A stretch of 64,000 nt of DNA, taken from NCBI GenBank assembly GCA_028866715.1, contig JAGWHO010000004.1, positions 1-64,000 on the forward strand, read 5' to 3'. Source of the DNA: Microcaldota archaeon (GTDB lineage Archaea > Micrarchaeota > Micrarchaeia > Micrarchaeales > Micrarchaeaceae). The translations under genes and the position numbers were made by a program. Positions 26,214 through 44,261 of this stretch are shown here, in pieces. The notes beneath the pieces are model-generated. The model searched no databases, was not told the DNA's origin, and saw only the letters and a program-made list of their open reading frames with translations. Every line of letters begins with the position of its first letter. Position 1 is the stretch's first letter.

Positions 26214-26906
26214 TCACAGCTTGTTCAATCTGTTGAGCACTTCGCTGATGTCGAGCTTCGTGGAAAGGAGAGGTATGCGCTCGACCTGGGCTATCTTTAT
26301 CGCAAGCTTGTCCACGTTTGTTATGTTGTGGAGCACGATTATCTTCGGCTTTATGGGCGCGACCCTTATCACAACGAGCGGTGACCTTCCGCTGGATACC
26401 CTCTCAAATAGGAAGGCTCTCTCAGTTGTGGAGCCGAACAGTTTTGGATATTCCGCAGGGGACATTTCAAGGATTACACGCAGGCTGTCGAGCCTTGTGT
26501 AGCCGAACAGCTTTACTGAATCAAGGTAATTTGGATTTGCGACTATCTTGCCCTCTATTATCCTGCAGAAGTCTACGCCGCTTATCGGAGCGGCAAAATC
26601 GTGAATATCGTAGAACGGGACCTTGTCCTCACCCTTTGATGTGAACTTGGTGAGGCCGCTTATGACAGTCCCTCCTCTCGATGTGTCTATTGTGAACAGC
26701 GCATCAACGAATCTTCTTATGACGCCGACGCCCGGGCTCAATCTTCTGTTGCTCTCGTAGTCGCTTATCGTTGACGTTGATATCTTTATCTGCTTGGCCA
26801 AGTCTATCTGCGTTACGCCGAAGAGCTCCCTCCACTTCTTCATGGCGCTGCCTGGGCTGTCCGAGAGCGTTATCTCTCCAGCTATCTTCTCCCTTAGCTC
26901 GTCCAT
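26214..26906 (-). CDS. Archaeal HTH transcriptional regulator (COG1709-like)
   Basis: A 230-residue protein with an N-terminal Xre-type helix-turn-helix (about residues 22-60: FGVTQIDLAKQIKISTSTIS, the recognition helix ending in DYESNRR). A conserved archaeal domain follows, with PISGVDFCRIIEGKIVANP and the late IIVLHNITNVDKLAI. This is the layout of COG1709 predicted regulators. Its targets are unknown. A GTG in frame at 26915 is an alternative start. It lies convergent to the thioredoxin-like gene. Confidence 0.85.
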   Translation of the reverse strand: MDELREKIAGEITLSDSPGSAMKKWRELFGVTQIDLAKQIKISTSTISDYESNRRLSPGVGVIRRFVDALFTIDTSRGGTVISGLTKFTSKGEDKVPFYDIHDFAAPISGVDFCRIIEGKIVANPNYLDSVKLFGYTRLDSLRVILEMSPAEYPKLFGSTTERAFLFERVSSGRSPLVVIRVAPIKPKIIVLHNITNVDKLAIKIAQVERIPLLSTKLDISEVLNRLNKL

Positions 26907-26945
26907 GACACCCACGATACACTACTATGCGAACGTATCTTTTAA

Positions 26946-27656
26946 TTACCTTCTGGTCTTTTTCTTTGCTGGGTGGCCCTTGGCCCGATCAACGTTCTTG
27001 TATAGGGCGTCAACGTACTCCTGGCTGACGTTTGCCTTGCCGTCGCCCGGCTTCCCTCCTTGCGCCTCGGGCCTCTTCTTTATTGCACCGTATGCCACGA
27101 CAATGATGCCTGCGATGAACAGAAGTATGTTTATAACATTCACAATCTGGTAAGGACCTATCGCGCTCGCGCCCACCTGCACCCATTCAAGCTGCGCGGC
27201 TACAGTACCGTTGCTGGAGGGGCTCCCGTTTGTGTTGTCAACAACGACGTCTATGCTACGGTTCTCTGCAGATGAGAGCGCGCTGAGGTTCTTAGGATAG
27301 ACGAGCTCCGCAAGCGATGACGGATTGCCTATGAACGAGTTGTTCGGCAATATGAGCCTTGCATAGGATATGCCTGAGAAATTCTTGACGGTGTTCATGC
27401 CGGATACCCATCTAGAGAACGTCACATTGTTGAATATGTAGATATAAGCCGGCTTGCTGAGCGATGCCTGGACCACTAACACTGACCTGTTTGCCATTGT
27501 TATCGGCAACGATGCGTAGCTACCTTGGTGGACCGTGAGGTTCTCCGCCATTATGCCGTTCCTTATGCTGCTGCCCAGCAGCGATCCTGATATGAAAAAC
27601 GATGCAATCGCGATCGCTATTAGCGCCAGCCCTATGTAGATTATCTTCTTCCTCAT
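26946..27656 (-). CDS. Membrane protein with extracellular domain, unknown
   Basis: A 236-residue protein with an N-terminal transmembrane helix (about 6-28), an extracellular region of about 140 residues bearing several N-x-S/T sequons, a second transmembrane helix (about 171-191), and a Lys/Arg-rich cytosolic tail. I do not recognise the outer domain. It lies between the regulator and an acetyltransferase on the same strand, so these may share a transcript. Confidence 0.7.
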   Translation of the reverse strand: MRKKIIYIGLALIAIAIASFFISGSLLGSSIRNGIMAENLTVHQGSYASLPITMANRSVLVVQASLSKPAYIYIFNNVTFSRWVSGMNTVKNFSGISYARLILPNNSFIGNPSSLAELVYPKNLSALSSAENRSIDVVVDNTNGSPSSNGTVAAQLEWVQVGASAIGPYQIVNVINILLFIAGIIVVAYGAIKKRPEAQGGKPGDGKANVSQEYVDALYKNVDRAKGHPAKKKTRR

Positions 27657-27693
27657 CTTATCATGCCTATTTGCGTGTCAAGTTTTATAAAGT

Positions 27694-28269
27694 CTATATC
27701 TCGGTTATGCGCGGCTTGATGTCATCAGCGTATTCGCTCTTCAGGAGCGCGAACGCGTACTTGTCTACATATTTGTCGCCGTGCAGCTCCGCTTGTTTGT
27801 GCAGCCCCTCGATGCTGTAGCCCAATCCTGCAAGCAGCTCTGAAGAGCGCGTGTTGAACGTGTATGTATAGGCATACAGCCTGTTGAGCTCAAGCTCGAT
27901 GAACGCCAGGTACTCCAGGAGCCTCAGGGCCTGCTTCGTATAACCTTGCCCCCAATAGACCTTGCCGAGCCAGTAGCCTATCTCTGCTGTCTTGTTCCTT
28001 ATGTCTATGTTCATGAGGGTGCACGCGCCGATGAGCCCGTATTTGACATGGTGTATGCCGAAGTGCAGCCCGCGCATCTCCTTTCTTGCGGCTATAGTGG
28101 CCTTTACGAACTCTATGGCGTCTGATTTCTCGTACGGGCTCGGGAATGTGCCTGGCGCCGATACGCTCCTTGCCACCTCGGGGTCGTTCGCGTTCTCTAC
28201 TATAGCGCCGACATCATCCATGGCCAGCAGCTTTATGTAGACGTCGAAGCCCTTTTGCACCAGCTCCAT
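27694..28269 (-). CDS. RimJ/RimL-type GNAT acetyltransferase
   Basis: A 191-residue acetyltransferase of the RimJ/RimL group. Typical are IGACTLMNIDIRNKTAEIGYWL, VYWGQGYTKQALRLLEYLAF (acetyl-CoA loop) and the late YTFNTRSSELLAGLGYSIEG. Members acetylate protein N-termini or small molecules; the target is unknown. It is divergent from the KaiC-like ATPase with about 95 AT-rich bases between. Confidence 0.88.
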   Translation of the reverse strand: MELVQKGFDVYIKLLAMDDVGAIVENANDPEVARSVSAPGTFPSPYEKSDAIEFVKATIAARKEMRGLHFGIHHVKYGLIGACTLMNIDIRNKTAEIGYWLGKVYWGQGYTKQALRLLEYLAFIELELNRLYAYTYTFNTRSSELLAGLGYSIEGLHKQAELHGDKYVDKYAFALLKSEYADDIKPRITEI

Positions 28270-28363
28270 GCTCTCGGAGTATACTCTCTCGCACCTGCTT
28301 TAAATGGTTGCGTGGCTTTAATATGTTTAATAAGCTTTTCTGTGTTATACTTAGCGTGTTTTG

Positions 28364-29086
28364 ATGGGCGATGACAGGGTAAAGACGGGAATAACAGGGC
28401 TTGACGCCATGCTCGGCGGGGGCATACCCTCAACAGACCAGATAATAATAGCCGGAGGCCCTGGTGCGGGAAAGACGCTCATATCTTTTGAGATCCTTTA
28501 CCACAACGCCAAGGCAGGCATACCTACGGCGTTCATCGCCTTGGAGGAGCAGCCGAACACAGTGGTAAAGAACGCTAAGCAGGCCTTCCCCGAGTTCACC
28601 GACATAGACGACCTCATAAATAGCAAGCTGCTGTTCGTTGACGGAGAGGACCCGGCATCGAAGATAACACCCTCGTCAGACTCGCAGACATACTCTTTCG
28701 GTAACGTAGTCTCTGAGATAGAGGGCATAATAAAGGTCAACAACGCGAAGGTAGTCGTGATAGATTCGATATCGCTGCTTAAGCTCATGCTTCCAGACAA
28801 GCTGATATACAGGAAATCCATGATAGCTCTGGTATCAAACCTGAGAAGGCTTGGCGTAACTACAATACTCACGAGCGAGATAAGCTCTTATGAGCGCAGC
28901 AGGCTCAAGTTCAACGAGGAGTTCTTCATCTTCGACGGCCTTGTCACCATGTATCAGACTGGTGAGGAGGACAAGCGAGTGTTCGCTCTCGAGATAGTCA
29001 AGCTAAGAGGGAGCGCGCACAGCAAGGCGCTCTCGCCCTACGATATAACGTCCCAGGGCTTCAGGATATTTACGCTTGAGCAATGA
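28364..29086 (+). CDS. KaiC-like RecA-superfamily ATPase
   Basis: A 240-residue single-domain KaiC/RadA-like ATPase. GITGLDAMLGGGIPSTDQ is the KaiC entry motif, Walker A is GGPGAGKTL, Walker B VVVIDSISLLKL, and GEEDKRVFALEIVKLRGSAHS the late conserved strand. Archaeal single-domain KaiC proteins are linked to signalling and motility switches. ATG 28364 follows an in-frame TTG. Its end nearly meets the start of a Cys-rich surface protein gene, so the two are probably cotranscribed. Confidence 0.88.
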   Translation: MGDDRVKTGITGLDAMLGGGIPSTDQIIIAGGPGAGKTLISFEILYHNAKAGIPTAFIALEEQPNTVVKNAKQAFPEFTDIDDLINSKLLFVDGEDPASKITPSSDSQTYSFGNVVSEIEGIIKVNNAKVVVIDSISLLKLMLPDKLIYRKSMIALVSNLRRLGVTTILTSEISSYERSRLKFNEEFFIFDGLVTMYQTGEEDKRVFALEIVKLRGSAHSKALSPYDITSQGFRIFTLEQ

Positions 29087-29090
29087 TCCG

Positions 29091-30182
29091 ATGTTCGGGT
29101 TCAGGCACAGAGATAAAGAGGCAGAAGACGAGAGTAAGCGGCGCAAGCCTGTTCTCTCTGAACGCGAGCGCAAGATAGTGTATATAGGCGCAACCGTAAT
29201 TCTTGTCGCGGCTGCGCTTGTCTCTCTTCTTGCACAAAGCGCAGTCCGTTCAAACGGGGTAAATGGCTGCTCCGGCATAATCCTGCAGCAGCAGCGCGAC
29301 TCGTGCTACAATCAGTTTGCCATCGCTACGAAGAATATCACGGCCTGCGGCGCGATAGCAGGCGCTGCGCTTAGATCCTCGTGCTCCAGCACAGTTGCAG
29401 AGAGCCTCTCTACCCCCGGGCTCTGCGGCAAGGCAGGCCAGGCTGGTTATTCGTACTCAAACTGCGTCATCAACATCACGCTGTCGACAGGCCATGCTGC
29501 ATATTGCTCGCTGCTCAACGGCACGCTTGCCTCTACATGCGCCTACGATCTGGCTGTCCAGCAGAAGTTCGCGAACCTGACAACGTGCTACGGGATAGCT
29601 AACTCTACGCTTATGGACTCCTGCATGGGTACTTATTATTACAACAGCGCAATACTCCACGGATCCGCCTCATACTGCGGGCGGATACCAGGCAGCAGCA
29701 ACTCGAGCATACTAGGTTCGATACTCTCGCAGGGGTCGAATTACTCCAATCCCGAGCAGTATGTGATATACAGCTCGATAAATGTGTCGCCGCGCAACTA
29801 CTGCTACTACAGGATCGCGACAGCAACATTGAACAGGAGCGTCTGCTCGTCTACATCCGGGCTCCTCTCCACCCTGTGCAACGACACGTTCATAACCCTT
29901 AATTCGACTGCACAAAGTTACAATGTCACGACGGCATGCGGCTCCCTGCCTGGCTACCTGCAGGACATCTGCAACTACGGTGTCGCGAGCCAGCTCGCGC
30001 TCGCAAACAAGAACGTCTCCTACTGTGCATCGCTGCAGGGAACTACATACAGATACTCATGCATAACGACACTGGCTTCGAGCCTCAGGAATGCGACATA
30101 CTGCAGCTATATCCCGAACACCACCGTAAGCCAGGCGTGCGTGAATTCAGCGATCAATGCGACGAACTCCACACACGCATAA
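29091..30182 (+). CDS. Cys-rich repeat surface protein, membrane-anchored
   Basis: A 363-residue protein: a basic cytosolic start (about 1-28), one transmembrane helix (about 29-49), then about 310 extracellular residues with 20 cysteines at alternating short (about 10-12) and longer (about 12-18) spacings. Repeats read roughly C-x-x-x ... L-x-x-x-C ... A ... N-x-T-x-C. The even Cys count suggests about ten disulfides. There are many N-x-S/T sequons, so the domain is probably glycosylated. No family is recognised. TTG at 29076 is an alternative start. It follows the KaiC-like gene directly. Confidence 0.75.
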   Translation: MFGFRHRDKEAEDESKRRKPVLSERERKIVYIGATVILVAAALVSLLAQSAVRSNGVNGCSGIILQQQRDSCYNQFAIATKNITACGAIAGAALRSSCSSTVAESLSTPGLCGKAGQAGYSYSNCVINITLSTGHAAYCSLLNGTLASTCAYDLAVQQKFANLTTCYGIANSTLMDSCMGTYYYNSAILHGSASYCGRIPGSSNSSILGSILSQGSNYSNPEQYVIYSSINVSPRNYCYYRIATATLNRSVCSSTSGLLSTLCNDTFITLNSTAQSYNVTTACGSLPGYLQDICNYGVASQLALANKNVSYCASLQGTTYRYSCITTLASSLRNATYCSYIPNTTVSQACVNSAINATNSTHA

Positions 30183-41066: not shown

Positions 41067-41091
41067 TGCTATGCGTGAAGTGAGTGGTTCA

Positions 41092-41562
41092 ATGCTTAAA
41101 GCACAAAGCGCAATGGAGTATCTCACCACGTACGGGTGGGCAATCCTGATAATAGCCGTAGTCGTCTCTGTGCTCGCAGCAGCAGGGTTCTTCAGCACCA
41201 AGACATACGTGCGAGATTACTGCTTTTTGCCTGCGGATTTCAGCTGCATAAACGGATATCTCGGCTCCAACGGCAACTTCGTGGTTAACCTGCAGCAGTC
41301 AACGACCGCGCCAATAAACATAACAGCGCTCGGCTGCAACACCAACGCGACTGTGGCGTACATGACATCTTATTCGCCTGCGCTTTATGTTCAGATAGGG
41401 AACAATGTCACAGAGTCGGTGCCGTGCTACTACGTGAACGGGACAAGATACGTACAGCCGCCTGGAACCATATTCAAGGGCTTCCTGTTAATCAACTACA
41501 CTGACCAGCAGACAGGCTTCCCGCACACGGAGATAGGCAAGCTCATAGAGGTTGTGACATGA
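41092..41562 (+). CDS. Pilin-like protein with class III signal peptide
   Basis: A 156-residue protein starting MLKAQSAMEYLTTYGWA followed by a hydrophobic helix, the archaeal class III signal arrangement where a PibD-type peptidase cuts near the Ala-Gln and the helix packs into a filament or anchors the protein. The outer part (about 30-156) is Thr/Asn-rich with several N-x-S/T sequons and four Cys. The exported domain is not recognised. Its stop overlaps the start of the next gene, which has the same N-terminus. Confidence 0.8.
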   Translation: MLKAQSAMEYLTTYGWAILIIAVVVSVLAAAGFFSTKTYVRDYCFLPADFSCINGYLGSNGNFVVNLQQSTTAPINITALGCNTNATVAYMTSYSPALYVQIGNNVTESVPCYYVNGTRYVQPPGTIFKGFLLINYTDQQTGFPHTEIGKLIEVVT

Positions 41563-42488
41563 CGATGAGAGCGCAAAGCGCTATGGAATATCTCACCACT
41601 TATGGGTGGGCGCTTGTGGTTATTGTAGTTGTTGTCATATCGCTCATCTCGCTTAACGTCTTCAACGTCAACGGCATAGGGCCCAAAGCCCAACCTGGCG
41701 CCTGCCAGGTCCAAAGGCCATACGGTTCAGGCACTGTCCAATTCATAAATCTGATAGGCACGTGCAATGGCGAACTCCCGCAGTTCGCCGCATACTTCAA
41801 TGGCAACACTGCGGTAGGGAATGTGCCCGCATCAAGCACATTGACAACCCCGTTCAGCAGCAATGCGATAACCCTTAGCGGATGGTTCAAGGTGTATAAG
41901 ATGCCAGCAAGCGGGTTTGCGCCGGTGCTGTACTTTGGCAGCACAGGGGCCTCGTACTGCTCACCTGCGGATCTTCAGATTAACCCACCTTCAACGATAT
42001 ATGCGCAAGTACAGCAGATTGCCGGTTCAAACAGCGTGAGCGTCTACAACAGCGTATTAACCAATACGTGGTACAACGCAGCGCTCACGTTCACGAGCAA
42101 CGGTGCGATAAGCCTTTACCTTAACGGGCAGCTTGCCAACACAGTTTCGACGACAGCGTATCTCGACACGCCAGGACAGGTCTACAACCTCGACTTCGGT
42201 TCCAACCTCGGTACGGCAAGCAGCGGCTCATCGGCATGTGGCGGCGGTCCGTATTATTTCAACGGCACAATGGCAAATGTGCAGCTGTACAACACCGCGC
42301 TCTCCGCGAACGACATAACCGCGCTATACCAGGAGGGCATAGGCGGGGCTCCGATAGACCTGCAGCACATACAGGGATGGTGGCAGCTCAACCAGAACAT
42401 AAACGACTACAGCGGCAATCTGGAGAACGGCACAACTGCGAATGTAGTCTGGCTCGCCAACTGGCAGAGCGGGTACACGACCCCGTAA
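41559..42488 (+). CDS. Pilin-like N-terminus fused to a LamG/concanavalin-like domain
   Basis: A 309-residue surface protein with the class III signal start MRAQSAMEYLTTYGWA plus a hydrophobic helix, then a LamG-type lectin fold (about 65-290). Typical are ITLSGWFKVYK, NTWYNAALTFTSNGAISLYLNGQ and FNGTMANVQLYNTALSANDI, ending with IQGWWQLNQNINDYSG. LamG domains bind sugars or proteins. It is coupled to the preceding pilin-like gene by ATGA. A role in adhesion or host contact is a guess. Confidence 0.82.
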   Translation: MTMRAQSAMEYLTTYGWALVVIVVVVISLISLNVFNVNGIGPKAQPGACQVQRPYGSGTVQFINLIGTCNGELPQFAAYFNGNTAVGNVPASSTLTTPFSSNAITLSGWFKVYKMPASGFAPVLYFGSTGASYCSPADLQINPPSTIYAQVQQIAGSNSVSVYNSVLTNTWYNAALTFTSNGAISLYLNGQLANTVSTTAYLDTPGQVYNLDFGSNLGTASSGSSACGGGPYYFNGTMANVQLYNTALSANDITALYQEGIGGAPIDLQHIQGWWQLNQNINDYSGNLENGTTANVVWLANWQSGYTTP

Positions 42489-42821: not shown

Positions 42822-42830
42822 CGCAAACGC

Positions 42831-42838
42831 TTATAAGC
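42831..42838 (+). promoter_or_regulatory. TATA box of the tandem L12-like gene
   Basis: CTTATAAG is centred about 30 bases before ATG 42865. It lies just after the stop codon of the winged-helix gene, so the downstream gene likely has its own leaderless transcript. Confidence 0.45.
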
Positions 42839-42864: not shown

Positions 42865-43344
42865 ATGGCTAAGGACAACAGCACCATGGTCTCAAGCGAC
42901 GACTCAGACCAGCTGAAAGAGGACGTTGGATACAGCACCCTCAGGGCGGTGGTCAAGGCGGCCACAGACGCGTCTGTCGCGCTTGCAATGAAGGGCTTTG
43001 AGACAGTTTTCAAGAGCGATGAGGTCAGGGCCAACATAGACAAGGGCATAATGACATACTTCTATGCTGCTGGCATACTCAGCTTCTGCGGCCGCGAGAT
43101 AAACAGGGAGAACATAACCAGGATACTAGAGGCCATAGACATAGAGCCGAATAACGTGCTGACGGACGTGCTTCTAAAGACAGGTTTGAAAAGCCACATC
43201 GTCTATGCGTATGCTTACTACTATCTGCTTATAAACGGCAAGAGCACCACAGACGCGAACATAATGAGGGTGATAGACGCGCTCGGCCTCGAGCCGGACA
43301 AGGCAAGAATCAAGACGCTGAAGGCTGCGCTCGGCCTGCCGTGA
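42865..43344 (+). CDS. Protein with two tandem ribosomal P1/L12e-like helical domains
   Basis: A 159-residue protein. Residues about 63-107 (MTYFYAAGILSFCGREINRE, then an ILEAIDIEPN turn) and 111-157 (a Tyr-rich helix, GKSTTDANIMRVIDALGLEP, DKARIKTLKAAL) each match the N-terminal dimerisation domain of archaeal ribosomal stalk protein P1/L12e: Y-x-A helix, G-K/R-x-I/T loop, N-x-x-x-V/I-L-x-A-x-x-I-E, R-x-K-x-L. The hinge and acidic C-terminal tail that recruit GTPases are absent. The first 60 residues are unrelated. Ribosome or stalk binding is possible but unproven. Confidence 0.75.
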   Translation: MAKDNSTMVSSDDSDQLKEDVGYSTLRAVVKAATDASVALAMKGFETVFKSDEVRANIDKGIMTYFYAAGILSFCGREINRENITRILEAIDIEPNNVLTDVLLKTGLKSHIVYAYAYYYLLINGKSTTDANIMRVIDALGLEPDKARIKTLKAALGLP

Positions 43345-43345
43345 A

Positions 43346-43873
43346 TCATTTCAATTGGAATTCCTTCTTTATCTTGTTGACCTTCGGCCTTATCACGAAG
43401 GCGCAGTACGGTTGCAATGGATTCCTTTTGAAATAGTCCTTGTGGTAACCTTCTGCAGGATAAAAGGCATCGAGTCTCTTGACCTCGGTTAGTATCTTGT
43501 TATCGAACTCGACCTGCAGATTGCCTATGAATTCGTTTATCGCAGTTTTCTGCTCTTCTTTTGTGTAGAGTATTATTGACCTGTATTGCGAGCCCACGTC
43601 AGCGCCCTGCCTGTCCTTAGTTGTCGGATCGTGCATCTTGAAGAATATCTCAAGCAGCTTCTCAAGAGGCGCAACCTTGGGATCGTACTCAACCCGAAGA
43701 ACCTCGGCGTGGCCGGTATCGCCATTGCATACTTCGTCGTATGTGGGGTTCTTCGTCTGCCCTCCGGCATAGCCTGGAGTAACCTTTTGTACGCCATTGA
43801 ACATGGAGAAAACCGCTTCGGTGCACCAGAAACAGCCGCCGCCAAAGACTATGATTTCAGACAATCTTATCAT
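43346..43873 (-). CDS. msrA: Peptide methionine sulfoxide reductase MsrA
   Basis: MsrA reduces the S form of methionine sulfoxide. The 175-residue protein has the active site GGGCFWC (catalytic Cys14, Cys17 beside it), then VTPGYAGGQTKNPTYDEVC, GHAEVLRVEYDP and PAEGYHKDYF near the end. It is translated from the msrB mRNA, its ATG lying 17 bases inside the end of msrB. Together they repair both stereoisomers. It converges with the L12-like gene. Confidence 0.95.
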   Translation of the reverse strand: MIRLSEIIVFGGGCFWCTEAVFSMFNGVQKVTPGYAGGQTKNPTYDEVCNGDTGHAEVLRVEYDPKVAPLEKLLEIFFKMHDPTTKDRQGADVGSQYRSIILYTKEEQKTAINEFIGNLQVEFDNKILTEVKRLDAFYPAEGYHKDYFKRNPLQPYCAFVIRPKVNKIKKEFQLK

Positions 43874-44261
43874 CGATTTTCTGGCCCTTGGGTATGAACT
43901 TCATGGATATAGAGTTTACGCAGTAACGCGTGTTCTTCTTTGTCATCCCCTCGCCTTCGAATACGTGGCCGAGATGCGCGCCGCAGTTGGCGCAGAGTAT
44001 CTCGGTCCTCATGCCGTCTGCATCAGGCTTCCTCCTTACAGCACCGTTTATCTCATCATCGAAGGCGGGCCAGCCGCATCCGGAGTTGAATTTGTCTTCT
44101 GATTTGTAGAGCGGAGCGTTGCACCGCTTGCAGATGTATGTGCCTTCCTTGAAGTTGTGGTCGTACTCGTTTGTAAACGGGGCCTCTGTTGCCTTGTGTA
44201 TGATTACCCGCTTCTCCTCGTCGTTAAGCTCGTTGTACTTTGGCTTTTTCGCCTCGTCCAT
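43857..44261 (-). CDS. msrB: Peptide methionine sulfoxide reductase MsrB
   Basis: MsrB reduces the R form of methionine sulfoxide. The 134-residue protein has a zinc site from Cys44/Cys47 (CKRC) and Cys90/Cys93 (CANC), SGCGWPAF, GHVFEGEG and the catalytic Cys114 in TRYCVNS. It is the first gene of the msrB-msrA pair. The neighbour on the other side, a methyltransferase, is divergent. Confidence 0.95.
   Translation of the reverse strand: MDEAKKPKYNELNDEEKRVIIHKATEAPFTNEYDHNFKEGTYICKRCNAPLYKSEDKFNSGCGWPAFDDEINGAVRRKPDADGMRTEILCANCGAHLGHVFEGEGMTKKNTRYCVNSISMKFIPKGQKIDDKIV

Follow-up and report, generated by a model that had tools for sequence, protein, structure and literature searches.

The N-terminal domains of the ribosomal stalk proteins P1 and P2 consist of four helices, of which helices 1, 2 and 4 make up the dimer interface (PMC4379515). 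Recruitment of stalk proteins to other work has seldom been found. In archaea, the KaiC-like ATPases, to which the archaellum regulator ArlH belongs, are seen as signalling proteins (PMC8978795). Here, we analysed a stretch of 64,000 nucleotides (the window) from a tiny acid-mine archaeon of the Micrarchaeota with a genome of 878 kb in 25 contigs, where a forward-strand gene (42865..43344, ATG at 42865 and stop codon at 43342-43344 according to the ORF list and the family alignment) encodes a protein of 159 amino acids. Both halves of this protein are of P1 ancestry and they are fused in one chain, which we call di-P1. The first P1-type domain (43048..43179, forward strand) has helices at residues 62-74, 81-90 and 97-105, and the second (43198..43332, forward strand) at residues 112-123, 130-139 and 146-156. 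The short linker (K-S-H or K-N-H) contains His111 (codon 43195..43197, forward strand), and this residue is conserved in 93% of the clade of the window protein and in 86% of a clade found in KaiC operons; Y65, L72, G76, Y114, Y116, Y119 and G125 are the other conserved residues.

Two tandem domains of the P1 dimerisation type had been proposed in an earlier sequence-only reading of this DNA, and this is borne out by the TIGR03685, profile-profile and Foldseek comparisons. The NCBIfam model of archaeal P1 (TIGR03685) matches residues 63-100 and 113-156 with a score of 49.8 bits, which is below the curated equivalog cut-off of 100 bits, and when scanned singly each half is recognised by the same model (E 6.6e-6 for the first and 2.7e-6 for the second). 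In profile-profile comparisons with the canonical P1 of the same order, copy 1 reached Prob 98.4 (E 5e-15) and copy 2 Prob 98.0 (E 2e-13), and the copies matched each other with Prob 98.4, as compared to 0.3-2.5 in the negative controls. The second half also finds the stalk P1 of P. horikoshii (3a1y) in a phmmer search of the PDB (E 8.6e-5), and P1/P2 stalk proteins were the only matches below E 0.1 when a 47-row family profile was compared with the whole PDB, copy 1 fitting best on archaeal P1 (1.3e-8) and copy 2 on yeast and human P2. The AlphaFold2 model of the protein alone (pLDDT 93.0, pTM 0.78) has a long helix (residues 11-49), a short helix (52-56) and three helices in each copy, and its top Foldseek match in the PDB is the solved archaeal stalk P1 (3a1y_A, prob 1.00, 0.6 A over 42 columns); stalk proteins of yeast and human are further matches. 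The E value of the top match is modest (0.41) because the domain is short. It is very improbable that unrelated short three-helix repeats have come to resemble P1 by convergence: short helical domains easily give weak matches, Pfam PF00428 stays below threshold (E 0.039) and the fold E value is modest, but the halves match P1 independently and in the same register, the structures agree at 0.6 A, and no other family gave a comparably strong match.

The earlier description of the layout was right about the two P1 domains and about the missing GTPase-binding tail, as the window protein has neither acidic hinge nor LF tail and none of 94 family proteins (0/94) ends in an LF-type, factor-binding tail. 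What it overlooked is the long N-terminal helix (residues 11-49; 42895..43011, forward strand), which appears in the AlphaFold2 model and is absent from canonical P1, and the loss of helix 4. Helices 1-3 are present in both copies, whereas helix 4 is missing from both, since the P1 match stops short of it and the model shows three helices per copy. An origin of the N-terminal helix as a copy of the P0 spine helix found no sequence support (hhalign Prob 0.3). It seems that the two copies, P1a and P1b, pack as an intramolecular pseudo-dimer.

The gene stands by itself. A TATA-like box (CTTATAAG, 42830..42837, forward strand) about 30 bp 5' of the ATG suggests a gene-specific promoter and a near-leaderless mRNA, and a conserved operon was sought for the clade of the window protein and none was found. 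The neighbours are two pilin-like proteins with a AQSAMEYLTTYGWA-type signal (41071-42488, the second with a Laminin_G_3 domain), one protein of 110 amino acids, and MsrA beside MsrB (43346-44261), downstream of di-P1 and convergent to it. A normal P1 gene (C22:19119, C-terminus EEEAAGGLASLFGG) with a tail adjoins the P0 gene (C22:17921) elsewhere in the same genome, and this pair is ordinary and intact, like the other P0 loci inspected. The di-P1 gene is on another contig (C20) and is not encoded beside P0 or P1; conserved ribosomal neighbours were not seen for any clade of the family, and a keyword look at a 2026 survey of archaeal hibernation factors (PMC13324472) turned up no such protein.

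According to the sequence-only reading, the fused pair could mimic a P1 dimer, attach to P0/L10 or cap the stalk, and may in this way regulate translation. In the fullest form of this idea, the protein would occupy a P0 spine helix as a tail-less competitor and lower the recruitment of translation factors, acting in hibernation or slow growth. We consider this rather unlikely, although it is an explanation to keep in mind: helices 1-3 are kept, the tail is missing, the gene is solitary with its own putative promoter, and similarity to P1 is strongest in the clade of the window protein. However, both copies are without helix 4, which in P1/P2 contributes to the dimer interface (PMC4379515), the added helix of 39 residues might fill the groove, and the gene is unlinked to ribosomal genes. 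For the clade of the window protein a stalk cap is possible, P1 ancestry being all that speaks for it. Of the members of the family that were compared, none is as similar to canonical P1 as the window protein (full-sequence E 3.5e-13 with TIGR03685, versus about 1e-3 to 1e-2 in the KaiC-operon clade), and thus a surface for P0 or P1 may persist in it. Instead of binding P0, it could also exchange with free P1 as a heterodimer partner and store or titrate P1, as the fold is the same and exchange of P1 family proteins on and off ribosomes is known (PMC3794596). This we find improbable, because two domains paired within one chain should already fill each other's interface, helix 4 is lacking and the gene is unlinked to that of P1.

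We searched 295 genomes of the phylum by profile, of which about 167 belong to the same Micrarchaeota order and 128 lie outside it. Full-length relatives were present in about 66 of the about 167 genomes of the order and in none of the 128 others (0/128), where just matches of canonical-P1 strength were found. In a scan of the genomes of 84,980 species the family appeared in Micrarchaeota-titled records, in one titled Marsarchaeota and in one titled 'uncultured archaeon'. An origin from a phage or virus was considered and rejected: relatives turned up neither in phage records nor in IMG/VR, and the fold did not match any viral one. The proteins have either a single unit (about 160 amino acids) or a double unit (about 320 amino acids, four P1-type domains), and one profile covers all clades, the window protein included, with the same unit of N-terminal helix, P1a and P1b. 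The presence of the family is patchy across genera, as might be expected of a drifting paralogue without function, but dN/dS values of about 0.07-0.26 (from related pairs with usable dS) indicate purifying selection, and together with the residues conserved from Y65 to G125 they leave hardly any credibility to such an explanation.

In a tree built from 140 units, the window protein belongs to a clade of 28 single-unit proteins (support 98/95), which is separate from the KaiC-operon clade of seven members (100/97) and from the double-unit clades. Double-unit proteins have multiplied in five genomes (G061, G073, G194, G241 and G277), and four-domain paralogues reach about ten in some genomes. 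Tandem arrays of seven (L102:3946-10334) and four family genes (L103:3354-6700), mostly of the four-domain form, are an unusual lineage-specific expansion for such small genomes. Two single-unit genes lie side by side at L072:4329-5275 (G041) and at L148:5222-6288 (G056), and in G041 the tree joins each of the two to one half of a fused double-unit protein found in relatives, i.e. a split or unfused form. The model of a four-domain protein (pTM 0.85, with a disordered linker at 162-168) gave only noise in a fold search. The four-domain versions and this pTM suggest that two units pack together in such proteins, and the window protein may consequently act as a homodimer. That other sister lineages carry many four-domain versions, with up to about ten of them in some genomes, looks unlike a stalk cap and tells further against a competitor for P0.

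Linkage to KaiC-like ATPases was found in other parts of the family. In 17 of 53 genomes, the distance between a family gene and the gene of a KaiC-like ATPase (PF06745) is at most 1.5 kb, as compared to 1.4 expected, and random placement did not reach the observed count in any of 200,000 simulations (0/200,000); these counts are not independent, and because the genomes are related the statistic overstates independence, though the cases come from two families and have several distinct flanks. Most of the KaiC-adjacent genes (15/18) are on the same strand. In seven loci (L051, L139, L140, L141, L142, L121 and L052) two KaiC genes are followed by di-P1, all on one strand, with 0-17 bp between genes or overlaps of 4 bp, and L143 and L144 have this trio with di-P1 first. 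For the KaiC-KaiC-diP1 operons in general, which recur in several unrelated flanking contexts, the gaps range over 0-29 bp besides the overlaps of 4 bp. KaiC pairs were present in 17 of the 28 genomes with members outside the clade of the window protein versus 3 of 69 others (Fisher 4e-9); same-strand pairs were found in 0 of 25 genomes with the window protein's clade only and in 3 of 44 without a family member. The pairs are not strictly dependent on di-P1, because those of G016, G024 and G039 stand without a family gene beside them. KaiC pairs without an adjacent di-P1 are seen at L156, L157 and L158, and in L156 the pair is followed by a thioredoxin-like ORF of 120 amino acids. None of the 28 members of the window protein's clade adjoins KaiC (0/28), the nearest KaiC to the window gene is 13.8 kb away, and four genomes carrying this clade (G017, G040, G072 and G118) have no PF06745 match at E 1e-10. 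The window does contain a KaiC-like ATPase module (26214-30182), in which an HTH_3 regulator (26214-26915) and a membrane protein (26946-27656) on the reverse strand are accompanied by KaiC (28361-29086) and a Cys-rich protein of 368 amino acids (29076-30182) on the forward strand, and similar sets in L054 and L146 contain family genes.

As several cousins are in operons with KaiC-type ATPases, the stalk domain has probably taken on a new role, and the tie of the sister clades to KaiC rather than to ribosomal genes argues against a role in translation. The explanation we favour, tentatively and at slightly less than an even chance, is that the P1-derived pseudo-dimer works away from the ribosome as a protein-protein adaptor, which the sister clades use together with KaiC ATPases. 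Duplication and fusion of a P1 gene within one Micrarchaeota order, in the course of which helix 4, hinge and tail were lost, would have produced a single chain in which two archaeal P1 N-terminal folds form a pseudo-dimer and a new long N-terminal helix is added. Most likely no longer on the ribosome, the P1 pair could act as a helical protein-protein adaptor by attaching to a partner that it then positions or controls. In the sister clades this partner would most likely be the KaiC-like ATPase pair of the same operon, with which linkage was observed and binding may be supposed; in the clade of the window protein, an ATPase of the KaiC or another family whose gene lies elsewhere may take this place, or the partner may have changed. 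The adaptor explanation is favoured by P1 ancestry, the absence of helix 4 and tail, the KaiC linkage, the lack of ribosomal neighbours, the intact P0 and P1, and the four-domain forms with their pTM of 0.85, whereas the window protein's clade without KaiC adjacency and the genomes of that clade without a PF06745 match count against it. For the family as a whole, it is conceivable, with similar reserve, that a stalk domain duplicated, fused and moved off the ribosome gave rise to an adaptor family for KaiC-type signalling, and probably for other partners, in Micrarchaeota, with tandem four-domain arrays in some lineages.

A fused P1 pair or a P1-derived partner of KaiC was not found in the curated families, solved structures and open-licence literature searched, in agreement with the sequence-only reading that knew of no protein with this layout; such absence is not proof, and the di-P1 family is apparently undescribed and confined to one archaeal order. 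If P1 has become a KaiC adaptor, a universal ribosomal fold would be linked to archaeal ATP-driven signalling, the KaiC-like ATPases of DPANN would gain a partner protein and structural work a single-chain P1 pair; should di-P1 bind P0 instead, it would regulate translation through the stalk. Compared to archaeal P1 (aP1/L12e, TIGR03685; 3a1y), di-P1 contains two sets of helices 1-3 from the N-terminal dimerisation domain and shares the motif Y-x-Y-A-A...L..x-G-(K/R)-E-I..E-N, but it is fused in duplicate, has an additional N-terminal helix, is without helix 4, acidic hinge and LF tail, is not encoded beside P0 and scores below the curated cut-off. We set the di-P1 family apart from P1, as a relative within a known fold family and not as a P1 member. 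In the eukaryotic P1/P2 heterodimer (2lbf, 4beh), as in di-P1, two P1-type domains that are related but not equal make one unit; unlike in di-P1, they are separate chains with helix 4 and tails and are bound to P0 on the ribosome. With the archaeal KaiC-like ATPase systems (KaiC/ArlH type, PF06745) the connection is one of gene order, in that the sister clades share an operon with two such ATPases, whereas the window gene itself is unlinked to KaiC.
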